Origin: Calothrix anomala FACHB-343
Lineage (GTDB): Bacteria > Cyanobacteriota > Cyanobacteriia > Cyanobacteriales > Nostocaceae
Length of the DNA stretch: 64,000 nt
Direction of reading: 5' to 3'
NCBI RefSeq assembly: GCF_014696435.1
Contig: NZ_JACJQG010000026.1
Span: forward strand, 1-64,000
A program made the translations under genes and the position numbers. Positions 20,156 through 32,598 of the stretch are shown here, piece by piece (within the stretch, counting starts at the first letter, position 1; each line of letters begins with the position of its first letter). A model generated the notes under the pieces. That model was not told where the DNA came from and did no database searches. It saw only the letters and a program-made list of their open reading frames with translations.

Positions 20156-20310
20156 GATTTTCTGGCGATCGCAAAAATCTTATTGTAAGTATAAAAATAC
20201 TCATGCATCCAGTAAACCATAAAAACGACTGATGCAAAATCTCTATGGGTGAGTGCAAATTACATTTATGCTACCTTTGTCAAGAAAATGTTGCATTTCG
20301 ATAAAAATCT

Positions 20311-20326
20311 GTTACATTACTTTACA
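20311..20326 (+). promoter_or_regulatory. HLR1 box (RpaB-binding type) upstream of hli
   Basis: GTTACATTACTTTACA matches the cyanobacterial high-light regulatory consensus of two (G/T)TTACA-type half-sites separated by four bases. It lies 44 bases upstream of the hli start, as in other high-light-inducible genes, where RpaB binds it. A third TTACA follows at 20332. Confidence 0.75.
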
Positions 20327-20369
20327 GGCAGTTACAACTGTCATCACATAAAAGCTCGGAGTGTTATTT

Positions 20370-20549
20370 ATGGCAGACACGAAGAATCCTACAACTACAG
20401 TTTCTGAAGATCCTAACGCTTTACGCTGGGGCTTCACTCCTCAGAGCGAAAACTGGAACGGTCGTTTTGCAATGATTGGTTTTATAGCGGCGATTCTAGT
20501 GGAAGTTTTTTCGGGACAAGGAGTTTTACACTTCTGGGGTATCCTCTAG
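20370..20549 (+). CDS. High light-inducible protein (one-helix chlorophyll-binding protein)
   Basis: A 59-residue single-span thylakoid protein. The chlorophyll a/b-binding motif is [18 protein letters not shown] (ExxNxRxAM), followed by [16 protein letters not shown]. Hlips bind chlorophyll and carotenoid, and protect or assist photosystem assembly under excess light. ATG 20370 was chosen over the in-frame GTG at 20361. The upstream HLR1 box predicts control by RpaB. Two hairpins downstream separate it from the convergent cluster. Confidence 0.95.
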
Positions 20550-20680
20550 ATTCAGCTAGGCTTGATGTTTTGGGAAGACTGCGATGTGTAGAGTCGTCTA
20601 GCTTCTTTTGACATCAAAACTCATTCGGACTGCGATCGCAGTTGCAATACATTTAGATAAATATCATTCTTTCGATAGTT

Positions 20681-20751
20681 GTAAAAAATGCAAGCTTATG
20701 CATTTTTTACTTAAAGGCAAAGCTGAACATTAATTGTTCAGCTTTGCCTTT
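20681..20751. terminator. Two adjacent terminator hairpins between hli and the Zorya-like cluster
   Basis: GTAAAAAATGCA (20681-20692) pairs with TGCATTTTTTAC (20699-20710). AAAGGCAAAGCTGAACA (20713-20729) pairs perfectly over 17 bp with 20735-20751. They lie between convergent genes; the second can end the long minus-strand cluster and the first the hli transcript. Confidence 0.85.
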
Positions 20752-20764
20752 CTTATATTTAGAT

Positions 20765-22174
20765 TCAGTTTGTTAAAAAACCAATCTTGTTACAGTAGAC
20801 TCTAGCTTCGCGTTCCAAGCTTTCAATCTCATTTTGCCACCATCTAAGATTTTCTTGACGTTGTTGCAATTTATCTGCTTTAGGGTTTGGGTAAGGTTTA
20901 GTACCAGGGTTTGGGTTGATTCCCTTCCTTGCTAGCCATTGACGGCAAAAGAATTGCCAAAGAAATACATGATCGTGTCTATCGCCACCTAAACAACGAA
21001 TCCGTTTCACTGAAAGTCTAGATTCACCAAAAAGAATTTGCTGATTTCTGGAATTGTTAGGAAGCAGGCGTGTCTCACTACCTCGTCCACGAAAAAACTC
21101 GACTACGAACCACTCACCAAAATCAAATATACATACCTCTGTGGAGTCGCTACCATCATCTTCTAATAGATCAGCATCTCCTTTAATTTGTGTCCCTATA
21201 GCAAGTTGTGATGTTTTGGGTAGCAGGATGCGAAGCCTTTCAAAACGGTTACTGTAATTAGCCCAGAATTCCCTGCGACTTTGTAACCGATCTGACTCGA
21301 ACTGTTGTATGTGAAGTCTGTTCAATATTACATCTACTAACTTTTGGAAATCACCATAATTAATCCCCCCAATCCACTCTCTAAGTCGCTTCCTTGCTGG
21401 CTCAGAAAGCTGATACCATCTATCAGCATTTCGATAATGTTGTCGCAACCATTCAACTAGCGGTGGGTTATTACTTGCTACATGATTGGTAACATTGTTT
21501 AGTAAATGATCAACTGCTTTTAACTGCTGCTTATCCGACATCTCATCTAAACATCTTAATAGCCATTTAACCTGCTGCTGGGTTGGAGAAATTATTTTAG
21601 AGAAATAGGGACTAATATCCTCTAAAAAATGGCTAAATAATGGCAGCCAAATAGGTAAATTATTTTGGATTAAGTTTAGCAATTGAGTGCGATTTACATT
21701 TTGTTCACAAGCGATTTTTGCTAATTTACTACCAGGTTGTTTACTGCGTAGTGCCTGAATAATTTTAACCGATAGCAGTTGGCTAACTGAGTGATAATTA
21801 GCAAAGACATCAAAAGATTCAGCTAGAGATTGTGCGAAATTCTGTTCTGGCTGAAAACTATAATAAATAGCGATACGCCAAAGCAAATGATGTTGCAACC
21901 ATGAGTGAGAAATTGCTATCTTCCAAATAGCTGCTGATGTTTTTCTGGAACGGCCAATATTTTGCTTATCCCATTGTGCTTTGCTATGGATGCAGTAAAC
22001 CCATTCTAACTTACTTACTTTATCAGCTTTACCCTGTTCAATTGCTGCCAATACTTGATCAACAGTTGGTATAGATATTGTTGTATTTGGTAAAGTGCTT
22101 GCAAGTTGAATAAGTTTATTAGGACTAAATTTGGGAGTTTCAGTTTGGGGAGGAACAGAGAACTGAAAATTCAA
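20765..22174 (-). CDS. EH-signature-like protein (ZorC-like)
   Basis: A 469-residue soluble protein. The C-terminal part resembles the EH-signature domain of ZorC: FWANYSNRFERLRILLP, then CIFDFGEWFVVEFFRG with Glu359, LSVKRIRCLGG and DRHDHVFLWQFFCRQWL with His402, in the expected order. The N-terminal 300 residues are mostly helical, and the C-terminus is a charged helix. In Zorya type I, ZorC is a cytoplasmic DNA-associated partner of the ZorAB motor. The gene starts 13 bases after the ZorB-like stop and is last in the cluster. The assignment rests on motif order, not on a search. Confidence 0.65.
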   Translation of the reverse strand: MNFQFSVPPQTETPKFSPNKLIQLASTLPNTTISIPTVDQVLAAIEQGKADKVSKLEWVYCIHSKAQWDKQNIGRSRKTSAAIWKIAISHSWLQHHLLWRIAIYYSFQPEQNFAQSLAESFDVFANYHSVSQLLSVKIIQALRSKQPGSKLAKIACEQNVNRTQLLNLIQNNLPIWLPLFSHFLEDISPYFSKIISPTQQQVKWLLRCLDEMSDKQQLKAVDHLLNNVTNHVASNNPPLVEWLRQHYRNADRWYQLSEPARKRLREWIGGINYGDFQKLVDVILNRLHIQQFESDRLQSRREFWANYSNRFERLRILLPKTSQLAIGTQIKGDADLLEDDGSDSTEVCIFDFGEWFVVEFFRGRGSETRLLPNNSRNQQILFGESRLSVKRIRCLGGDRHDHVFLWQFFCRQWLARKGINPNPGTKPYPNPKADKLQQRQENLRWWQNEIESLEREARVYCNKIGFLTN

Positions 22175-22187
22175 GATTATTACTCCG

Positions 22188-22838
22188 TTAATGAGAAGTT
22201 TTGGTGATATCTGGCTTTAACTCATCACTGCGAAACTGAAAGCGGAAAACCACTTTGCGATCGCCTGGGTTATCAAGTGTCTGGTCAGCTTCAATTTCTC
22301 CACGACCTGCTGCCAAAATTTTTTGATTTAAAGGTGATTTAGTTGGAAAATCAATGTCATAAAAAATGTATTTATAAACTGATGAAGACCTCATTACACT
22401 TAATTGTAAATTGGTTTTGTCATCGCCTTCTGAGCTAGTGTGACCTTCTATCACTACGCGGCTAATTTCCTTATCAAATTCTCGCTTTGAAAAAATTACC
22501 CCACTGTAAACAGGGATAAATCGGCGTAGGAAAGCTTTACCTTCTGGTTTAAGTTCAGCGCTTCCTTTAGCAAATAAAATTGATTCTTCGATACTTACAT
22601 CTCCAGTGTCCGGGTTAACTTTGACATTGATATTATTGCTTTTCATCTGTTGCATAACGTTTTCAATTACATCATTTTTTGGAGCGCCTCTTTCTGCAAG
22701 CTGAAGTAAGACGGTGATGAATAATAGAGCAAAAAACATCAGCAATCCAGACATTAAATCGCCAATAGACAGATAGATACTAGAGTCTTCATCTTCTGTA
22801 ATTTCTGCGTCAATTTCGCCTCTGATAAAATCATCCAT
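22188..22838 (-). CDS. MotB/OmpA-like peptidoglycan-binding protein (ZorB-like)
   Basis: A 216-residue membrane protein. An acidic leader precedes one transmembrane helix (about 24-45) with the ion-carrying Asp27 in SIGDLMSGLLMFFALLF. This is followed by an OmpA-type domain: ESILFAKGSAELKPEG, VVIEGHTSSEGDDKTNLQLS and MRSSSVYKYI, the peptidoglycan-anchoring pattern. Its make-up equals that of MotB, ExbD-like stators and ZorB. ATG 22838 overlaps the ZorA-like stop by eight bases (ATGGATGA), implying translational coupling and a stoichiometric complex. Upstream in-frame ATGs (22871, 22862, 22856) are possible but add a Met/Ile-rich leader. Confidence 0.85.
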   Translation of the reverse strand: MDDFIRGEIDAEITEDEDSSIYLSIGDLMSGLLMFFALLFITVLLQLAERGAPKNDVIENVMQQMKSNNINVKVNPDTGDVSIEESILFAKGSAELKPEGKAFLRRFIPVYSGVIFSKREFDKEISRVVIEGHTSSEGDDKTNLQLSVMRSSSVYKYIFYDIDFPTKSPLNQKILAAGRGEIEADQTLDNPGDRKVVFRFQFRSDELKPDITKTSH

Positions 22839-25032
22839 GATGATTTCTCCCATTACCATTATCATTGGCATCTAGCAGTACACTTGCTGTGTGAAGTACT
22901 CTATCGCAAACTTTAGTCATAGCCTCATCAGCTTTTTGAAAAAAGCTTTCTTGTAAATCAACAGTTTGTTTCATAGAGTTCTCTAGGTGATCGCGCCAAG
23001 ACTCAAGGCTATGGTCAAATTTATCATTCAAATTCTTGTATGAATTGTCTACAATTTGCACTTGTTGACCAATACCAATGGCAAGTTTTTCTAGTTGTAT
23101 GAGTCTTTGTGCATCATGTAATCCAGCCGCACTCACTAATTTATGGATTTGTTCGACAGACATCTGAATTTTATTCATACTCCTGTCTACTTCTTCAGTT
23201 AATTTAATTCGCCTTTCAGCTTCTTCTTTGAAAACGCGATCCAAATTCGTCACTACGCTAGTTAATCCATCCCGATGTTCGCCTAGTGTCCCCTCTAATA
23301 GGTTATTTTGTTGTCTAAAGAATTCTTGGAGATTTCCTTGATATTCTTCCCGAAATTTTGTTAAATCATGCTCTACTGTTTCGCGAGTAGCAGTCAAGGT
23401 TCTATCAATATTTCCTAAAGCTTCTAAGAGATTATTTCTCGCATCATTCATCAAGTTAGATGCATCATCTCCCACTTTTTTGAGATTATTAGTTTGCTTT
23501 GTAAATGCTGTATTGGCTTCAGAGAGAATTTCACTAATTCTCGCCTGAGTATCTTGCAGCATTTCTGATTCTACTTTTGCACGGTTTTCTAGCGCTGTCT
23601 CAAGTTCCTCTCGAATTCCTTTGAAGGTAGCAGCAGCTTGTTGTGCGCTGGTTTCAAAAGCGCTTCGCTGGGCTGTCATTCCTTGGATACTTTCTTGTAC
23701 AGATCGATTAATTTCCTGAGATGTTAGTTGTAAAACATCGATTGTATCTGTTTTTAATCTACTGAAAGTTGTTTCCAAATTGTTAGCAAATGTGTGCAAC
23801 ATATCTGTTTCTACTGCTGCACGTTTTTCTAGTGCTATCTCAAGTTCCTGGCGAATTCCCTTGAAGGTAGCAGCAGCTTGTTGTGCGCTGGTTTCAAAAG
23901 CACTGCGCTGGGCTGTCATTCCTTGGATACTTTCCTGTACAGCTTGATTAATTTCCTGAGATGTGAGTTGCAAAACATCTTTTGTATCTGTTTGGAATTG
24001 AGTTAAAGTTTCTCCTAAATTGTTAGCAAAACCTTCAAGCTTTACTAAAGTATCTTGTTGAAAGTCTTGCATTTTCTGGATAGAATTTGCCAAACTTTGA
24101 GAAATACCACCCAGTTCCTTATGCAGAGTTAGCACTGCATTAGAAGCTTGCTGAGTTAATTCAGCACTTTTATCTAGTCGAACTGCAATTGGTTCAATTA
24201 CCTGAATTCGCAAATTTTTGATCAGTTCTTCTAAAACTTTTTCTCCTGGATTTTGTTGAAGTTCTCGAAGTTGTCTTTGCTCTGTAAAAATTGCTTTCAT
24301 TCCTGGTAGAATTAGAGTTAGCATTTGCTGTCCGACCGCTTGACCGATGGCTTCAGCACTCAGATGGTTTAGCCCTGTGAATGTATCTGCTACACGACTC
24401 AGAATTTGAACTACTTCAGCATTAGCATTATCTGTTGTTGGTAAAGTTGCAATCTTTTCTAGTCTTTCACGTAAACTATCACGTCGTTTCTGTTTTAGCG
24501 AATCACTGATAAACAAAACTAAAGTGAACAAGCTACCAGAACCTAAGCCCATTAAGGAAGTAGAAAATGCTGTTTTCATTCCTTCTAGTAAACCAGTACT
24601 AGCTTCCATTAGTTCGCTAGAGTTATTTATGGAAGATAGATTGATACCTTGTAATCCGTCTTGAATACCGTAAAATGTTCCCAACACACCAATAGCAGTA
24701 CACAAAGTAGTCACAAAACGTAGGGAACTACGAGGTATTGGACGAGATAAAACAGAGGGGTACTTTATTAGTAAAAATTTATCATCCGGTTTCTTGAAAT
24801 CACCTTTAGTATCTGTTTGTAGATACCTGTCTTTCCATCTGCGAACATTGGAATTTTCTTGCAACCGACTATTTTTTGGATTTTCTAAAGATTTAATTGC
24901 AGCTTGAGTTTTACTACAATACTGCCATACTGTGTAAAACTCTACAATTACTGCAACTATTAGCACAAAAGCAGTAGCCCAATGAAAAGGCCCGTTATCC
25001 CAAATAATGTCCCAAATTTTTGCTATTCCCAC
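22831..25032 (-). CDS. MotA/TolQ/ExbB-type channel protein with long coiled-coil tail (ZorA-like)
   Basis: A 733-residue protein. Transmembrane helices are predicted near 17-38, 107-124 and 157-178; the last two carry the proton-channel signature TAIGVLGTFYGIQDGL and GMKTAFSTSLMGLGSGSLFT. Residues about 180-700 are a long helical, coiled-coil tail without Pro, containing two 80-residue repeats (335-414 and 415-494). A MotA/ExbB-type core plus a long cytoplasmic tail is the defining form of ZorA, whose tail is thought to pass the phage signal inward. A single channel gene next to a ZorB-like gene argues against flagella. The start is ATG 25032, 16 bases after the preceding gene. Confidence 0.85.
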   Translation of the reverse strand: MGIAKIWDIIWDNGPFHWATAFVLIVAVIVEFYTVWQYCSKTQAAIKSLENPKNSRLQENSNVRRWKDRYLQTDTKGDFKKPDDKFLLIKYPSVLSRPIPRSSLRFVTTLCTAIGVLGTFYGIQDGLQGINLSSINNSSELMEASTGLLEGMKTAFSTSLMGLGSGSLFTLVLFISDSLKQKRRDSLRERLEKIATLPTTDNANAEVVQILSRVADTFTGLNHLSAEAIGQAVGQQMLTLILPGMKAIFTEQRQLRELQQNPGEKVLEELIKNLRIQVIEPIAVRLDKSAELTQQASNAVLTLHKELGGISQSLANSIQKMQDFQQDTLVKLEGFANNLGETLTQFQTDTKDVLQLTSQEINQAVQESIQGMTAQRSAFETSAQQAAATFKGIRQELEIALEKRAAVETDMLHTFANNLETTFSRLKTDTIDVLQLTSQEINRSVQESIQGMTAQRSAFETSAQQAAATFKGIREELETALENRAKVESEMLQDTQARISEILSEANTAFTKQTNNLKKVGDDASNLMNDARNNLLEALGNIDRTLTATRETVEHDLTKFREEYQGNLQEFFRQQNNLLEGTLGEHRDGLTSVVTNLDRVFKEEAERRIKLTEEVDRSMNKIQMSVEQIHKLVSAAGLHDAQRLIQLEKLAIGIGQQVQIVDNSYKNLNDKFDHSLESWRDHLENSMKQTVDLQESFFQKADEAMTKVCDRVLHTASVLLDANDNGNGRNHHG
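23551..24030. repeat. 240-bp tandem duplication in the ZorA-like tail
   Basis: Two adjacent 240-bp units (24030-23791 and 23790-23551) are highly similar. Each encodes 80 residues beginning FANNL and containing DVLQLTSQEIN and ESIQGMTAQRSAFETSAQQA, so the tail grew by one in-frame duplication without changing helical phase breaks. Confidence 0.9.
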
Positions 25033-25048
25033 AACAACACCCCTGTTT

Positions 25049-25393
25049 TTATTGCTTCTTAAATTGCGCTAATTCTTGAGAAGAAAGAACATCTTCTGCT
25101 ACCCGTACAGGAAGATGTTCTGCATACTGACGGTTGTTTATATGTTCGCGGAGATATAAGCTATAAAGACGCTCACCTTCTACATTTTTGTCTTCTATTA
25201 AATAAACCTGTTTTGGTGCATAGCTTCGCAACAAACGCACTTGTAAACAGGTTTTTAAATCTCGTGATGAGGTTGATAGAGGCGAATCTTCGCCAAATAA
25301 TTCACAAGCCACTTTCCAAGCGTGATTAACCGCGACAATCTCCCTCACCATCTGCTCAACAGAGGGATTCCATGCATCAGTATTTTCATGCAT
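25049..25393 (-). CDS. Small hypothetical protein of the Zorya-like cluster
   Basis: A 114-residue soluble protein with no recognised domain. It begins MHENTDAWNPSVEQMV and reads as a mixed alpha/beta fold (KTCLQVRLLRSYAPKQVYLI, ERLYSLYLREHIN). It lies 16 bases upstream of the ZorA-like gene on the same strand, so it is probably translated with it. There is no signal or membrane segment. It may be an accessory or sensor subunit; nothing in the sequence proves this. A 318-bp gap precedes it, where a second promoter of the cluster could lie. Confidence 0.75.
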   Translation of the reverse strand: MHENTDAWNPSVEQMVREIVAVNHAWKVACELFGEDSPLSTSSRDLKTCLQVRLLRSYAPKQVYLIEDKNVEGERLYSLYLREHINNRQYAEHLPVRVAEDVLSSQELAQFKKQ

Positions 25394-25570
25394 AATTGCA
25401 GTTTTATTATTTACCTATTTTTCTACATACTTATTATTCCCAAATCTAAAGAATAATTTAATTTTTTCTCAAAATATCGTTTTATTGAACGTAAAATAGG
25501 ACTCAGGATCTGATCTCAATATGCTGTGTAGATTGGGCTTACTGTGTGAAAACCCAACAAACCCCCAAAA

Positions 25571-25600
25571 TGTTGGGTTTCGTTCCTCAACCCAACCTAC
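25571..25600. repeat. Dispersed 30-bp repeat (copy A)
   Basis: A 30-bp sequence starting TGTTGGGTTTCGTTCC is found exactly, in inverse orientation, at 53227-53256. A nearby AACCCAACAA at 25551-25560 can pair with TGTTGGGTT to form a hairpin. The rest of the 25394-25711 gap is AT-rich and otherwise unremarkable. Confidence 0.85.
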
Positions 25601-25711
25601 TATTATCCTTAATTGAACCGTATTGGAGCTTGTGGAACAGCCTACGAAAAACCTAACTCTCTATGGCGTGTTCAGGAATTAGCGGTAAATTTAGGCGAAA
25701 ATAAGCACAAA

Positions 25712-26797
25712 TTACCGTGATGAGCGAAATATTACGCGCCCTGGTGATTCTTCTTGATTAATTCGCGCATAGACTCGCAGACAAGCTAAGACTTCCCCAG
25801 GATTACCGCCACAATCAAGTTGCAAGTCGTCTTTGGTTAAGGCGCAAATATCGGCGTAAAGTCCTGATAATTGGCGAATGCGGACATCATTACCTGCATT
25901 ATTCGCCATATCAACAAATTTTTTTAGCATTCGCCGTGATTCTTGTTGTAGTTTACCCCACCAGGAATAGCGATCGCTTGGTGGAATAAATACTAAGGAA
26001 TGGATGGCTTCATCTATGTCAATCCAAGCACGTAGAGTTAATAAGGCATCAGTGTTTTCTACAGCTTTTTGGGTGCGTTGAAAGCGTTCTGTTAAGGCTT
26101 CAATATATTGATTTTGCTGTTCTGGTTTGGCGTGTAAGGAGACGATATCGAAGCTGAAAACGCTTTTTAAAGCATGATGTAAGTCTGGTTCTATTTCAAT
26201 AAAATTAATACAAAAAAATAAGTAACCTGCGAGTAAGTTTATATCTTTTGAATCGGTATTTTGTTTGGTTTGGGTATAAGATAATGCTTTTTGGGATAGG
26301 CTTAAACCTTTGGTTTGAATTGTACCGCTAAGTCCGGGGTAAATAATTTCGTCGCGGATGAAGGGTAAGGGGTAGAGGTTGGAAGTGTCTTCTACTGCAC
26401 CAATTTCTTGGGCTAAAGTCAAGGCGCGTTGACGCCAAGTTGCTGCTAATTCTTCGGGAATTCGTAGGAGTTTACGTTGTATTTCGTTCCATAATTCTGC
26501 GTCTGTTTGGCTTTGGAGGGGGTTATTTCCTAGATATAATTTGAGGTCTTTATCTGCGTCGAATTCTTGTTTAAGTTGGCTGAGTTTTAGTTCATTATTT
26601 GGGTTGGGTTGGGGAGATTTGGGTTGTAATAAGTTATGGATTTCTTGGAGTATTTCTTCGCATAATTTAGCGCCTGGATCTAGGGGATGTTCTGTTTGGG
26701 CTTGTTGTAATGTGGCGGCGATTCCGTGGAGGCTATAGCGTAATATTTGGGCTAGTTGGGAGTTTTCTGTTTGTAAGAGTTGGCGTAGGTTTTCCAT
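25712..26797 (-). CDS. Hypothetical protein of the GTPase/Hsp70 module
   Basis: A 361-residue, helix-rich soluble protein with no motif I recognise. It starts MENLRQLLQTENSQLAQILR, has a Pro/Asn linker near 75-90, an IRDEIIYPGLSGTIQTKGLS segment and a C-terminal part with ADICALTKDDLQLDCGGNPG. It follows the Hsp70-like gene by about 200 bases on the same strand. Always-adjacent position would make it a partner of the GTPase or ATPase; the size and order loosely recall SrfA of the Salmonella srfABC operon, but I see no sequence support for homology. Confidence 0.75.
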   Translation of the reverse strand: MENLRQLLQTENSQLAQILRYSLHGIAATLQQAQTEHPLDPGAKLCEEILQEIHNLLQPKSPQPNPNNELKLSQLKQEFDADKDLKLYLGNNPLQSQTDAELWNEIQRKLLRIPEELAATWRQRALTLAQEIGAVEDTSNLYPLPFIRDEIIYPGLSGTIQTKGLSLSQKALSYTQTKQNTDSKDINLLAGYLFFCINFIEIEPDLHHALKSVFSFDIVSLHAKPEQQNQYIEALTERFQRTQKAVENTDALLTLRAWIDIDEAIHSLVFIPPSDRYSWWGKLQQESRRMLKKFVDMANNAGNDVRIRQLSGLYADICALTKDDLQLDCGGNPGEVLACLRVYARINQEESPGRVIFRSSR

Positions 26798-26825
26798 GAG
26801 TGTCGCCTCCAGGTTATTTATTTTT

Positions 26826-27004
26826 TTTAATTAACCGCCAAGACGCCAAGACGCCAAGGAAGAGAGAAGAGAGATGAAACCGCAGAGACGCAGAGGAGCC
26901 AGTGCGTTGCGCGGGTTCCCCGCGTTGTAGCCACTGGCGTGACACAGAGAAGAGGTTTTGAGAGGTTTTCTCTCTGCGTCTTTGCGTCTCTGCGTGAGGT
27001 AATT
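26826..27004. repeat. Intergenic repeat cluster (GACGC/CGCAGAG types)
   Basis: GCCAAGACGCCAAGACGCC units, a CCGCAGAGACGCAGAGG unit with an inverse CTCTCTGCGTCTTTGCGTCT near the other end, and a GC-rich hairpin around GCGCGGGTTCCCCGCG. The inverse units frame a foldable element between the Hsp70-like gene and the 361-residue gene. A related CTCTGCGTCTCTGCGG tract lies at 30040-30062, between the GTPase and Hsp70-like genes. Confidence 0.75.
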
Positions 27005-27005
27005 C

Positions 27006-29963
27006 CTAATGAATTCCGCAGAAGGGATCGCGTTCTTTATCTACTTCGTTGGGTTGCAGTTCTAATTCGGCGCGATAAACACATCCTGGTTGTTTGAGGC
27101 TTTCTTGGATGTTTGATGTCCAGTAAGGTACTTCACCGGCGTGCATTCTTAAAATACCTTTGTTGTCGAGGGTGACGCGATATTGGCAAGGGTAATCTGT
27201 GGTGACATCGGGTTTAGTTAATGCGCCGATACGTATCCATTTTTTTGTGTTGGTTTCTGCATCTGTTTGTACTACATAAAAGGTATGTTCTCCATTTTTA
27301 GGGAAGGGTGGTAAGGGATTACTAATTAATCCTTTTCCTGGTTCGGGTGAACCATCGCGGATGTAATGAAATTCTTGCAGGGATTTACTAATATCTTTGT
27401 CGGCTTCAAAGACTAAATGATAAGCGTCTGGTTGATCTACGGTGGCTGATTCGATGACGTTGATGGCTATATCGCCATCGTTTAAGTCTTTGTTGGGACG
27501 TTCAACGGCTATATTCCATTTCAATTTACCATCAGCAAATAATGTAAATGTTTCTGAGGCGGCGGAGATGACGGAGGTGACATCAATACCGGGAACATCT
27601 ATTAGGTAATGGGGGTTTCCTTGGCATAGTAAAACGCTAAATTGCAGGGTTTGATCGATTTCAAATTGAACTTTGATTTTTTTGAGAAAGTCGGGTTCTA
27701 AAAATCCAAGTTTCTCCATTAAGGTTTTACCGTCAAAGCTACCCCATAACCTTAAATCGCCGTCTTCGTAGTCTTGGCGATAAATAATGTTTGTTAATTG
27801 TATCCCTTGCCATTCTGTGCGGACTTTGGCGACGTTTTCATCTGCTGCTAGTTGATAAAGTTCTTGTCCGGCTTTAAATATTGTTAGGAGTTCGTTGCTT
27901 TGGGTTTTGCGTTTGAAGTTGCAAGGTAAGTAATAAAACAGGTTTTTGACATCTATTTCTAGTTGATTTGCACCTTTACGAAGTAATCCTTTTGACTCTT
28001 CGGGGTCGAATCTTAATCTACGTAGTTTCTCGGCGTAGCAAGCACCGGCTGAGGTGGCTAGTTTGGTAAATTCTAATACAAAGGTGATGCGTTCGGGGTT
28101 CCAGACGAAGTAGGGAGATTTGCTAAATTCTTGGTAGATGGAACGCTGTACGAGGTCGAGGCTGCAAGTTTTACCGGATAAAATTAGCCAGTCTACTTTG
28201 TGGGTATTCCAGGGGTCTATGGTGCTATCCTGGGGACGGAGGCGGCTATCCATGAGTCCTTGGGCAATACCGATCGCTTCTTTGATGGCTGATGATGCGG
28301 CGCGATCGAATTGTTGGCTATCGATGGTGACGCAGATACTACTGGGGTCTTTTACTTGGTATCTAATAGCACTTTGGTTGAGTAGTTCGGAAATCTGCTG
28401 TTCGGAGAGGGTAAAGGTGATGGGTAAAGCGTCTGCTGGCTTTTGTCCGAGTTTGATTTTGGCAGCTTCGGCATGATCCCACAATGTATAAAATGTTTGC
28501 AGGCGTTGGGGTGCTTGTTGCCAGCGAGTAGGTAAGACTTTTTCGGCTGTATCTAAAGCGTCTTTATAAGCGGCGTCGCCTTCGGGGTTTTCTTTATCTA
28601 AACATTTCAAAATACTGCCACTTTTGAATTGTCCGTTTTCGAGAAATCTTTCGTTTAATTCGGAGTTGATTAAGTCTTCTAGCTTGTCGCTTTCTAAATT
28701 TCCGGTGGAAACTGCTGTTAATAAAAAATCGGCGATCGCAATTTTTAACAGCTTAAATATTCTCAGGGTAATTAATTCGCCGCCTAGCTGTAAATGTCCC
28801 GATGAACCTAATAGTTTAGGTGTGAGTTTATAGTAACGTCCGCCTAAACCTCTGTCTTCATTATCGGCAAAGAATGGGGTTTTATCTTCTAGAGTTAATT
28901 CAATTAAAGCTAAGTCTGTAGTTCCCCCACCAATATCTAAAACTAAAACATTTTGTGACCATTTATTCCCGACTTGACGACAGCGAGTTTTGAAAGATTC
29001 AATTCCAATATTCAGATTACCGCCAAATTCTCGCCAGAGGAAAAATATCGCTACAGAAACGGCTTCGTCATAAGCGGTTTGGACATCATCAAGTCCTAAT
29101 TTTTCAACTAATTCTTTAACTTCTTTCCGCACTACAGGCGGCGCAACGGTGGGATAAGTAACAACGGCGGAGAGAAAATCACCTTCAGAAAATCTGCGTC
29201 TGGCGCGTTTGCGATAATCTTCGGTTAATTCAATTAAATGTCCCCAAGCTGCTTGTACTAATTGGTTTACATTTATTGTTTCTTCCGCCTCATCTAAGAT
29301 AACGGGAAAGGAACGATCCTGGCCAAAATAGCGTTTGGGGGAGTGATGAAAGCGGCTAATAATTTCTTTTAAAGCGCTGCTTGTTCCTTGGGCGATCGCT
29401 TTTTTTCGATTATCGCTGGCTTCTCTGCCCATTTTCAGTTTTAAAGCGGCTAATTTAGCGATTTCTAACTCGCTTTTAATTTCGGTGCTGCGCCTATCTA
29501 TATCTAAAACGACGGGGATGAGATTTTGCGATTCGAGAGTGGGAACGCGGAAGACTTCATGATATATCTGATAAAGCTTTTTACTCACAGCACGCCGAAA
29601 GCGATCGCTTGTTCCTAAGCATAGTTCAATTTGGCGCAGTGCTTCTAAAAATCGTTCCCGGTTATCGCTTTCAAACACTTCACTTAAGCGGCTGGGTTCT
29701 ATTTCGAGGTTTTTACTGATGTCAGCAATAAACTTTTCCCAGTCGCTAGCGCTGACATCTGGTAAAGCATCTGTAGCGGGGGAACTTAACCATTGTGCCA
29801 TGCGATCGCGCAGTCGCATTTCTTGTTCTTTGGGTAATACTTCGGCGATGGGGACTTCAATGGGATCGAAAAGTGTGACTGTAGAATTGGATGTGCCAAA
29901 GTCTAATGCAAACCATCCGGGGAATCTTTTTTGTTGTTGGCTATTGGTTTGGGAGGAGTTCAT
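27006..29963 (-). CDS. Hsp70/actin-fold ATPase (SrfB-like)
   Basis: A 985-residue protein. The N-terminal half has the sugar kinase/Hsp70/actin elements: phosphate loop 1 WFALDFGTSNSTVTLFDP (Asp21), connect 1 with VVTYPTVAPPVVRKEV (about 267-282) and YDEAVSVAIFF (about 298), phosphate loop 2 VLVLDIGGGTTDLALIEL (Asp343), and the adenosine segment DWLILSGKTCSLDLVQ (about 615). A long C-terminal region (about 690-985) is beta-rich and unlike DnaK. There is no DnaK-type EEVD tail and no DnaJ or GrpE gene near, so a housekeeping chaperone is unlikely. Length and layout recall the 'virulence factor SrfB' group. It is second in the cluster, between the GTPase gene and the 361-residue gene. Confidence 0.85.
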   Translation of the reverse strand: MNSSQTNSQQQKRFPGWFALDFGTSNSTVTLFDPIEVPIAEVLPKEQEMRLRDRMAQWLSSPATDALPDVSASDWEKFIADISKNLEIEPSRLSEVFESDNRERFLEALRQIELCLGTSDRFRRAVSKKLYQIYHEVFRVPTLESQNLIPVVLDIDRRSTEIKSELEIAKLAALKLKMGREASDNRKKAIAQGTSSALKEIISRFHHSPKRYFGQDRSFPVILDEAEETINVNQLVQAAWGHLIELTEDYRKRARRRFSEGDFLSAVVTYPTVAPPVVRKEVKELVEKLGLDDVQTAYDEAVSVAIFFLWREFGGNLNIGIESFKTRCRQVGNKWSQNVLVLDIGGGTTDLALIELTLEDKTPFFADNEDRGLGGRYYKLTPKLLGSSGHLQLGGELITLRIFKLLKIAIADFLLTAVSTGNLESDKLEDLINSELNERFLENGQFKSGSILKCLDKENPEGDAAYKDALDTAEKVLPTRWQQAPQRLQTFYTLWDHAEAAKIKLGQKPADALPITFTLSEQQISELLNQSAIRYQVKDPSSICVTIDSQQFDRAASSAIKEAIGIAQGLMDSRLRPQDSTIDPWNTHKVDWLILSGKTCSLDLVQRSIYQEFSKSPYFVWNPERITFVLEFTKLATSAGACYAEKLRRLRFDPEESKGLLRKGANQLEIDVKNLFYYLPCNFKRKTQSNELLTIFKAGQELYQLAADENVAKVRTEWQGIQLTNIIYRQDYEDGDLRLWGSFDGKTLMEKLGFLEPDFLKKIKVQFEIDQTLQFSVLLCQGNPHYLIDVPGIDVTSVISAASETFTLFADGKLKWNIAVERPNKDLNDGDIAINVIESATVDQPDAYHLVFEADKDISKSLQEFHYIRDGSPEPGKGLISNPLPPFPKNGEHTFYVVQTDAETNTKKWIRIGALTKPDVTTDYPCQYRVTLDNKGILRMHAGEVPYWTSNIQESLKQPGCVYRAELELQPNEVDKERDPFCGIH

Positions 29964-30069
29964 GGTGTTGAAGGGTTAATTTTTTTTTAACGCAAAGGGG
30001 CGCAAAGGTTGGCGCGGAGGTTCGCAAAGTTTTCTCTCTGTGTTCTCTGCGTCTCTGCGGTTCATTTTC

Positions 30070-32598
30070 CTAATAGTTAATCTCAGAAACATCGGACAGA
30101 ATTTGCAACCAGGTAGGAATTGCTAGTTGTGAGGATTCACCAGCAGCTAAATACCTCAGCAATTCTTCCTTTTTAGAAAGATTTTGCAAACTGGGAATAA
30201 TTTGATCCAAAACCCCAGCTAATTCCCCATTCACTTGCTGATTAACTTCACTCACATATTGCACTAAATGCAGACTCGCACTAGCAGTAATTTCATCCCG
30301 CAAGCGCAATACAAAAAGCTGATGATTGTTCGATTTAGTTAAACCATTCCTTTCAGGTGCCCAATCAAATATTTGCCCTACATTATGTTTTTCATCTTGA
30401 TGCGCTAAGGGAAAGATTACTTCAGCAACAATATTTTTCTCTCTACTTTCAATTTCCGAAATAATTGCTTCTTGCCATTTATTTGGATCGCAACCTAACA
30501 GCAGTTTATAAAATAACTCGGCTTCTTCAATGCCAAATTTAGCTTCTATTTCGGCTTCTATTTCTGGGTTGAGATTGGCTTGTAAATAATCTCGTTCTCT
30601 GGCAACAATATTTGATAACTTACTCAATAAATCTCCAATGGCTTGACGAATGCGATCGCGGGCGAATTCTTCTACTTCTTGAACTGTCTTAGCAAAGGTG
30701 GGATAAAAATCATCGCTTTTGGTAGGAATCGCTGTATTTACTCTATTACCCCTATCAAATAATTTCCCGGCTGCACCTTTAGATTCAGTTAAGGAAATTG
30801 TGCCGTTGTTCGCTTTATTAAATAGTAAAGTCCACTGATTCCAATTGAGAATGCGGTATGTTAGCTCATCTTTAACAACATCGCTAACGCCAATTCCCCT
30901 TCTATCTTTGAGTGGTTCCTTACCTAAATCTTTTTGGAAATTTCTGTAGGTTTTATCTAAATTCTCAATTGCTGCTCGTAATTCTAGCAAAGCTGGGCTA
31001 TCGGCGGTAGGCATACCTTGTTCTTGCATTTCATCCAGGATATTTTTTAAATTATCCTGTTGTTGACGCACGTTATCAGCAGCCCTTTTCGTATCTTCAT
31101 GGAGTTGCTTTAAACCGTGATTAGCTACGTGTTTTTGAATTAATTCTCGCAGCTTACTAATCCCCCCGTCTTGAGCAAAGTAGCCTAATTGTCTACCTAA
31201 ATAATTACGCGCATCGGTTGCTAATAAATTCTCGCTTAACTGTCCCCATTTATCTTGTAAGCGCTTGGAACGATCTAAATAATCGGGATAATCTAGATTA
31301 GCGAGAAATTCTGGCGAACCTGCTTTGACGGAAGTGGAACGTTTCGCTAAATCTGCTAGCCCTAAAAGTGGTGATAGTAAAACAATTCTATCTTTTTGGC
31401 TGGTAAATGCATTAGCAGCATCAAGGGTAGTTTGCAGAACTTTGAGCTTTTGAAAAACCTGACTTTCACGTAAAGGATTATCGATGCTATCTTGAATTAA
31501 TTGGTCTAATTCTCGTTCTCCTCCTTCACTATCTAGAGGTAGTTGATCGAAGCGTCCCACACCTACTAAAATTAAATCCTTGAGGTCTTGTCCCGGACGC
31601 TGTTGTTGCATCATGGTAAAGATTTTATTGGCGCGATCGCTTCCTGGGGATTTACCATTTAACAACACTAAAATTGTTTGAACTTCCGCTAATTCGCGCA
31701 GTGATAAAAAGGTATCTCTTGCGCCAGAATTCGCCGCACCCAATCCGGGAAAATCCAGCAAGATAAATTCCGATGCACCATTTACATCCCAAATTTCCCG
31801 CGAGATTTTCACATCAATATCTACACGGCGAATTAGGGGGAAACTATTCTGTAATAACTTAGCTGGTAATCTTTGCGGGGGACTGGGTAACTTGATATGT
31901 GCTGGCGGTAAATCGTCAAAGCTAATGGTTTGAATCGCCATTGGTTGCTCGACCAGCTTTAATCCTTCCCTGGCGGTGGTAGCATCAATTTGATAGGAAC
32001 CGCCACACATGACTTCGCCGTAGGCTTGGTAAGCGCGAACAAAGATGACTAATTCACGCAAAATGTAACGCAACTCTAAATTATTGCTATTTTTCCAGGT
32101 TTCCTCGCACCAATTGAGTATATCCTTTGGTTCCTTCAGCTTCGTCACCAGCGCAGGTAAAAGTCCAGCCGCGACTGTGCGCCGATTAGCTTCCCCAATC
32201 ATGAACCGCAGACAATCACTCACCCCTTCATGGGAAAGATACTCAACTGTAAAGTTGCCTAACTGTGTAGTGGCAAACCCATCCTGGGGTATGATGTGAA
32301 TCGCTGTAACATTGCCCGTCGTAGGATTTTCGCTCACTGGTAAAGCATCAGCGTAGCCAATCAAGCTGCCTAACAGCAAAGTTTTCCCGCTACTAAATTC
32401 ACCCATCACCCCGATTTTCACTGGTGAAGTAGCAAGTTCTACTGTTTTCTCCGCAGCTTCCCGGAGGCGAAACAGACTCTCATCAAGACTAGCTGGTACC
32501 CAATCTTCTTGCTTGGAGGGATATTCAGGCACAGAGTCTAATTTCTGGAGGATGAATTCGCCATATTTTTTATAACGCTCCAGTTGTTCTGTTTCCAT
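30070..32598 (-). CDS. Dynamin-like GTPase
   Basis: An 842-residue large GTPase. G1 is GVMGEFSSGKT (about 63-73), the switch I threonine lies in ENPTTGNVTAI (about 90-100), and G3 is LLDFPGLGAAN (Asp282, Gly285) after a long insert. G4 is the atypical GRFDQLP (Asp351), where N/TKxD is usual. Helical and charged segments follow (about 480-842), as in bacterial dynamin-like proteins, which bind or remodel membranes. No clear transmembrane helix is visible. It is first in the cluster, with an 800-bp gene-free region upstream that should hold the main promoter. SrfC-like proteins are an alternative family. Confidence 0.85.
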   Translation of the reverse strand: METEQLERYKKYGEFILQKLDSVPEYPSKQEDWVPASLDESLFRLREAAEKTVELATSPVKIGVMGEFSSGKTLLLGSLIGYADALPVSENPTTGNVTAIHIIPQDGFATTQLGNFTVEYLSHEGVSDCLRFMIGEANRRTVAAGLLPALVTKLKEPKDILNWCEETWKNSNNLELRYILRELVIFVRAYQAYGEVMCGGSYQIDATTAREGLKLVEQPMAIQTISFDDLPPAHIKLPSPPQRLPAKLLQNSFPLIRRVDIDVKISREIWDVNGASEFILLDFPGLGAANSGARDTFLSLRELAEVQTILVLLNGKSPGSDRANKIFTMMQQQRPGQDLKDLILVGVGRFDQLPLDSEGGERELDQLIQDSIDNPLRESQVFQKLKVLQTTLDAANAFTSQKDRIVLLSPLLGLADLAKRSTSVKAGSPEFLANLDYPDYLDRSKRLQDKWGQLSENLLATDARNYLGRQLGYFAQDGGISKLRELIQKHVANHGLKQLHEDTKRAADNVRQQQDNLKNILDEMQEQGMPTADSPALLELRAAIENLDKTYRNFQKDLGKEPLKDRRGIGVSDVVKDELTYRILNWNQWTLLFNKANNGTISLTESKGAAGKLFDRGNRVNTAIPTKSDDFYPTFAKTVQEVEEFARDRIRQAIGDLLSKLSNIVARERDYLQANLNPEIEAEIEAKFGIEEAELFYKLLLGCDPNKWQEAIISEIESREKNIVAEVIFPLAHQDEKHNVGQIFDWAPERNGLTKSNNHQLFVLRLRDEITASASLHLVQYVSEVNQQVNGELAGVLDQIIPSLQNLSKKEELLRYLAAGESSQLAIPTWLQILSDVSEINY

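Follow-up and report, generated by a model that had tools for sequence, protein, structure and literature searches.

The 64,000-nucleotide stretch of Calothrix anomala FACHB-343 analysed here (the window) carries seven genes on the minus strand, encoding proteins of 842, 985, 361, 114, 733, 227 and 469 residues, which very probably form two separate blocks: a core operon for a dynamin-like GTPase, an Hsp70-like ATPase and a 361-residue protein, and a cassette for ZorA, ZorB and ZorC of a Zorya-type system together with a 114-residue protein, termed D114, that is a functional part of it. A sequence-only reading of the same DNA had joined all seven into one system, with a ZorABC core coupled to the GTPase and the Hsp70-like ATPase; its coordinates and gene lengths proved correct, but the operon is an unrelated neighbour, and the one true extra component of the cassette is D114, present in 23/24 loci, whose gene that reading had passed over. 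The fuller reading, a mobile four-gene Zorya-type membrane defence cassette in which D114 would occupy ZorD's place, has by our estimate a probability of roughly 45%, full mechanism included. The cassette comprises the following features:

25049 to 25393, minus strand: D114, 114 residues, cassette gene 1, the constant partner of ZorABC in cyanobacteria
22831 to 25032, minus strand: ZorA-like motor subunit, 733 residues, with a long coiled-coil tail (PADLOC ZorA1; PDB 8vvn)
22188 to 22871, minus strand: ZorB-like motor subunit, 227 residues, with an OmpA-type peptidoglycan-binding domain (PADLOC ZorB1; Asp38; PDB)
20765 to 22174, minus strand: ZorC-like protein, 469 residues, with an EH-signature domain (PADLOC ZorC1; Pfam EH_Signature)
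20759 to 25672, no strand: inferred span of the D114-ZorA-ZorB-ZorC insert (empty sites in loci L005 and L052, occupied site in L006)
20713 to 20751, no strand: perfect palindrome of 17 bp with a 5-nt loop, terminator-like, bordering the insertion on its ZorC side (repeat search)

Apart from its four genes, this span of about 4.9 kb holds nothing notable.

D114 is found in 23 of the 24 loci with matches to all three of ZorA, ZorB and ZorC, a set composed of the window, L006, 21 loci from the ZorC search and the plasmid locus L149; left out of it are L117 (at a contig edge, with D114 on another contig of genome G207), L123 (which has D114 but no ZorB), and five loci without ZorAB (L113, L119, L121, L137 and L138). 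In the sole exception, L112, ZorA has a deletion, and all that is left directly upstream of it is a stretch resembling the first 18 residues of D114 (a weak match, tblastn E 0.031). Among 386 cyanobacterial genomes, D114 occurs in 24, of which 23 also have ZorC; both genes are present in 23 genomes, ZorC alone in 6, D114 alone in 1, and neither in 356 (Fisher test 1.8e-30, uncorrected for relatedness). In 22 of the 23 shared genomes D114 lies no more than 6 kb from ZorC, and in the remaining one the two are split between two contigs. A profile search with D114 recovers the same 24 genomes and adds one more, matched at E 0.007 and interrupted by two stops; it also detects a second, 30-residue scrap of D114 in G211. 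The gene is on the same strand as ZorABC in 22/22 loci, mostly spaced within 30 nt, and stands either upstream of ZorA (17/22) or downstream of ZorC (5/22). In a survey of plasmids, D114 and ZorC each gave a single hit, both to one Nostoc HK-01 plasmid; a search of 50,697 phage records did not find D114, and degenerate patterns retrieved neither D114 nor ZorC from IMG/VR.

The conservation of D114 matches that of ZorB: its mean identity is 0.54, as compared to 0.53 for ZorB, 0.46 for ZorA and 0.42 for ZorC, and its invariant residues include N23, W26, K27, K47, Q51, R53, D68, E74, H93, P95 and R97. Its ratio of nonsynonymous to synonymous divergence (dN/dS) against L006, 0.16, indicates purifying selection. 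The distances between D114 copies follow those of ZorA, ZorB and ZorC over 20 loci (r 0.81-0.89), for which common descent alone could suffice. In a tree of D114 only, L122 stands apart from the other loci with a downstream D114, whereas a tree of ZorB and ZorC groups it with them (support 1.000); given this conflict, the number of D114 relocations is uncertain. A hitchhiking gene of some other function, next to a type I Zorya, ordinary or in decay, from which ZorD has been lost, would agree with the absence of ZorD beside the cassette and with the broken loci in the set (a split ZorA in L126 and in L136, a truncated ZorC in L120 and in L124), yet it is hard to square with purifying selection on D114, its linkage in two gene orders and its movement with the cassette, and we consider it quite improbable. 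The family has no credible match in Pfam, PHROGs, NCBIfam or PDB (the best are single-member NCBIfam matches at E 0.0065, with unrelated names), and the window's copy has none in PADLOC. An origin of D114 as a domain detached from ZorA, ZorC or ZorD of type I was considered and rejected on hhalign probabilities of 0.1-0.2, obtained with thin comparators of two sequences.

The separation of the two blocks is seen from the side of the operon as well as from that of the cassette. Among the 80 loci examined (L001-L080) of the 93 confirmed in a search with the Hsp70-like protein, all cyanobacterial by title, a match to ZorA, ZorB, ZorC or D114 occurs near the Hsp70-like gene in one (L006); over the 68 informative loci, 46 of which show the downstream dam gene and 22 of which extend more than 5 kb past the 361-residue gene, Zorya genes stand beside the operon in one. 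None of the 28 ZorC loci L111-L138 has the GTPase, Hsp70-like or 361-residue gene near ZorC. The Hsp70-like gene is present in 43/43 sampled genomes of the window's family and in 0/343 others (a count read from a kinship-sorted listing, in which no family member is without the gene and G334 has fragments only); from the organism names, this family would be the Nostocaceae of GTDB. ZorC is patchy: it is matched in 30 of the 386 genomes, one of these matches being spurious (G059, E 7.8e-5, four stops), and the 29 real ones fall 13 within the family and 16 outside it. In the 13 family genomes with both genes, ZorC adjoins the Hsp70-like gene once, at 7 kb, in the window's genome; in the other 12 the two are 80 kb to 3.8 Mb apart (seven genomes) or on separate contigs (five). 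Within the window's genus the GTPase occurs in 9/9 genomes and a near-full-length cassette in 2/9 (G000 and G393); the raw cassette tally of 9/9 is due to a short dispersed repeat. The cassette adjoins the GTPase in G393 too, a genome that may be the one to which L006 belongs. The repeat itself lies on the D114 side of the insertion, at about 25523-25627 of the window, and accounts, among the matches listed, for nearly all of the 48 that the cassette sequence gives within the window's genome. A single seven-gene system of Zorya, dynamin and Hsp70 components would be suggested by the one strand and close packing of the genes in the window and by the same arrangement in L006. It fails, however, on co-occurrence across genomes (adjacency in 1/68 loci and 1/13 genomes, an operon spread through the whole family as against a patchy ZorC) and on the precise empty sites described below, so that the check which the sequence-only reading had proposed for itself turns against it; we regard such a system as extremely improbable and have rejected it.

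In L005 (Nostoc linckia FACHB-104) as well as in L052 (Calothrix membranacea FACHB-236), the counterparts of positions 20758 and 25673 of the window lie one base from each other, so that the approximately 4.9 kb from 20759 to 25672 are present in the window and in L006, which has the same cassette at the same site, and absent in these two. In L001, the nearest relative (99% identity in the Hsp70-like protein), the site is occupied by a gene for an unknown protein of 381 residues and by a second D12-class adenine methyltransferase. The gap between the 361-residue gene and the dam gene (20156-25711 in the window) varies from 49 to 7475 bp over 46 loci, with DUF5131, dynamin-like, kinase or transposase genes inserted in further loci. 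Relative to L006, the cassette genes have a synonymous divergence (dS) of 0.30-0.51, as opposed to 0.84-1.12 in the operon and 0.65-0.73 in three flanking genes; for D114 and ZorA the intervals lie below those of the flanking genes. The lower values suggest that the cassette was transferred as one unit after the hosts had diverged.

By their profile matches, the three larger cassette proteins are Zorya-family proteins, as the sequence-only reading had proposed: ZorA is matched by PADLOC PDLC00597 (ZorA1, E=2.6e-268), ZorB by PDLC00609 (ZorB1, E=6.5e-73) and ZorC over its whole length by PDLC00618 (ZorC1, E=5.6e-176). Since these models already fit, the three proteins are not new. In Pfam, EH_Signature (2.4e-34, ZorC) and OmpA (5.3e-9, ZorB) exceed their cut-offs, and MotA_ExbB remains under its own. 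The structural matches agree with the assignment of the channel pair: for ZorA the sole PDB match at E<=0.01 is 8vvn, a Shewanella type I protein (E 8.7e-6), and for ZorB there are three at E<=0.001 (8vvn, 8vvi and 8qyd, the last of which we take to be a Zorya structure), all of them Zorya or MotB-like chains. Of these, 8vvn and 8vvi are the Zorya motors of PMC11890865. The membrane aspartate of ZorB, D38, is conserved in 24/24 cyanobacterial sequences, which together with the OmpA domain bears out the predicted MotB/OmpA-type protein; the true start of ZorB may be codon 12. In an alignment of cyanobacterial ZorC, Glu359 is conserved in 25/25, Asp401 in 25/25 and His400 in 24/25; the glutamate of the EH signature had been placed correctly, but its histidine is His400 and not His402. 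The ZorA tail contains a 240-bp tandem duplication (23555-24030) with copies 87% alike, both of which cross-match in L006.

The composition of the cassette departs from each described Zorya type. With type I it shares the order ZorA, ZorB, ZorC and the PADLOC labels ZorA1, ZorB1 and ZorC1; in two type I controls (L158 and L161, on Polaromonas and Nitrosospira plasmids) ZorD, the SNF2 helicase of this type with its Mrr-like nuclease, follows ZorABC at once (PADLOC E=0), whereas the cassette has no ZorD next to ZorC and has D114 added. Its ZorC is also shorter, at 469 residues compared to 578-606 in the two controls, and aligns to them over its C-terminal half alone (hhalign probability 52, E 1.5e-4), while D114 is unrelated to the ZorA, ZorC and ZorD of the controls. 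Neither a ZorD nor a ZorE gene lies within the window, which confirms their absence beside ZorABC. The neighbours considered were open reading frames (ORFs) of at least 140 residues within 5 kb of 21 loci (n=157), of which 148, from 20 loci, were scanned; no Zor model matched among them (PADLOC, E<=1e-10). With type II (ZorA, ZorB, ZorE) the cassette has the motor pair in common, but it has no ZorE or HNH protein, ZorE being absent from the PADLOC matches of the seven proteins and the 148 neighbour ORFs, and carries ZorC and D114 instead. With type III (ZorA, ZorB, ZorF, ZorG) it again shares the motor pair, but no ZorF or ZorG match was found in the same seven proteins and 148 ORFs. Type III illustrates that ZorC, ZorD and ZorE may be exchanged for different partners (PMC8565338). 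The literature search (top entries only of the longer lists, with subscription papers mostly outside) found neither a cyanobacterial Zorya lacking ZorD nor a small Zorya partner, nor a paper on Zorya in Nostoc; the composition of ZorABC plus D114 appears to be new.

In the favoured reading, the cassette D114-ZorA-ZorB-ZorC is inserted at the variable site downstream of the core operon, and ZorA and ZorB would, by homology, form an ion-driven, peptidoglycan-anchored motor sensing the disturbance of the envelope at phage entry. A peptidoglycan-anchored ZorA5B2 motor is described for types I and II (PMC11890865). The ZorA tail would then relay the signal to cytoplasmic partners, one of which, again by homology, would be a recruited ZorC; membrane perturbation is thought to recruit ZorC and ZorD to incoming DNA (PMC12904381). 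D114, to judge from its linkage, would do or enable the work of ZorD, as an essential effector-side subunit together with ZorC; in Serratia type I, each single-component deletion abolished protection, that of ZorD included (PMC11890865). More tentatively, and with distinctly less than an even chance, D114 may found a new effector family and the cassette a fourth type of Zorya, in which the motor and ZorC would act through a 13-kDa protein and not through a ZorD helicase-nuclease of 1200 residues.

Several observations weigh against the favoured reading. D114 has no recognisable catalytic motif; G155, a genome in 1110 contigs, has a partial D114 without ZorC; the genome-wide surveys of D114 and ZorC cover cyanobacteria only; and the dS contrast is modest, the intervals of ZorB and ZorC overlapping those of the flanking genes. 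Of the 148 neighbour ORFs, few match PADLOC families (15, none of them Zor), and Pfam matches of neighbours are mostly housekeeping among the first 25 of 183 families, so that there is little sign of a defence island except on the mobilizable Nostoc HK-01 plasmid (L149, 9861-16580), which has genes for a DpdE/DrmD-like helicase and DrmMI/type IIG-like proteins directly after ZorC. Finally, host proteins of the SNF2 family score as ZorD, which makes a ZorD-like partner in trans possible: the ZorD model PDLC00630 matches SNF2 proteins in 22 D114-bearing genomes (best E 4e-42), and in nine SNF2 ORFs scanned, the best match is the ZorD model PDLC00633 in 8 (E 2.8e-102 to 4.8e-143) and DpdE in 1. 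D114 might accordingly be an adaptor by which the motor borrows the host SNF2 helicase of about 1000 residues as its ZorD. The matches, however, span only the SNF2 half of this protein, whose N-terminal part is unlike the model; PDLC00630 is covered mainly over positions of about 267-650, compared to 131-806 (E 1e-79 to 1e-88) in the two true type I loci. Moreover, the same SNF2 protein is found in 40/40 relatives, at least 10 of them without a ZorC match (G008, G014, G051, G056, G062, G101, G131, G172, G229 and G385), and is for this reason taken as housekeeping; the adaptor is unlikely. In nine genomes (G386, G387, G101, G396, G402, G068, G039, G062 and G054) the SNF2 match is split in an intein-like manner, near residue 612-622, in open frames of 1282-1580 residues.

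D114 might also act as a regulator, holding ZorABC off as an inhibitory or immunity-like subunit, with the EH domain of ZorC as the effector. Its small size, acidic character (isoelectric point 5.8) and conservation beyond that of ZorC (0.54 versus 0.42) would suit this role, as would the likeness of the conserved Glu359, Asp401 and His400 of ZorC to active-site residues and the retention of a ZorC-like gene without ZorAB or D114 in G039, G203 and G354, three genomes from a single genus. Against it, ZorC needs ZorD in published type I systems (PMC11890865), and no nuclease motif was found in the cassette ZorC; we judge a regulator possible but doubtful. The solo ZorC-like genes of L113, L137 and L138 (one genus) lie near cysH- and aldolase-like genes, named by eye, and the stretches around them contain no ZorA, ZorB or D114.

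The operon outside the cassette, which is vertically kept and unrelated to it, comprises the following features:

25712 to 32598, minus strand: operon of GTPase, Hsp70-like ATPase and 361-residue protein (co-occurrence; dS against L006)
30070 to 32598, minus strand: dynamin-like GTPase, 842 residues (Dynamin_N)
27006 to 29963, minus strand: Hsp70-like ATPase, 985 residues (sub-threshold SrfB and HSP70)
25712 to 26797, minus strand: 361-residue unknown protein of the operon

The GTPase adjoins the Hsp70-like gene in 78/80 loci and the 361-residue gene does so in 77/80; the latter is truly absent in L024, and the remaining misses are contig ends. Strong purifying selection acts on the operon (dN/dS 0.05-0.11 against L006). 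The identification of the GTPase as dynamin-like is upheld by Pfam (Dynamin_N, 1.8e-6, clearing the cut-off), but that of the 985-residue protein as Hsp70-like is backed less directly, with HSP70 and SrfB both below their cut-offs (SrfB over 74 residues, 23.5 bits versus 27.1) and with DFGTSN and DIGGGTTD motifs kept in 15 aligned relatives. Its weak SrfB match and its position beside a GTPase recall the SrfB-type Hsp70-like proteins, from which the operon differs in that the SrfB match is below cut-off and the GTPase has no SrfC-type match. On the other side of the cassette, between ZorC and dam, lies a gene for a high-light-inducible-like protein of 59 residues (20370-20549, plus strand; Chloroa_b-bind slightly below cut-off).

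The tempting link between Zorya and dynamin or Hsp70-like ATPases is corrected here as false; the operon, which this sample shows throughout one family of filamentous cyanobacteria and nowhere else, deserves study in its own right. For the cassette, the PADLOC label of type I masks the lack of ZorD as well as the presence of an additional gene in these loci. If the favoured reading is true, ZorABC with a partner of 114 residues would offer a minimal setting for separating the roles of ZorC and the effector, and for asking how ZorAB hands its signal over to differing effectors.

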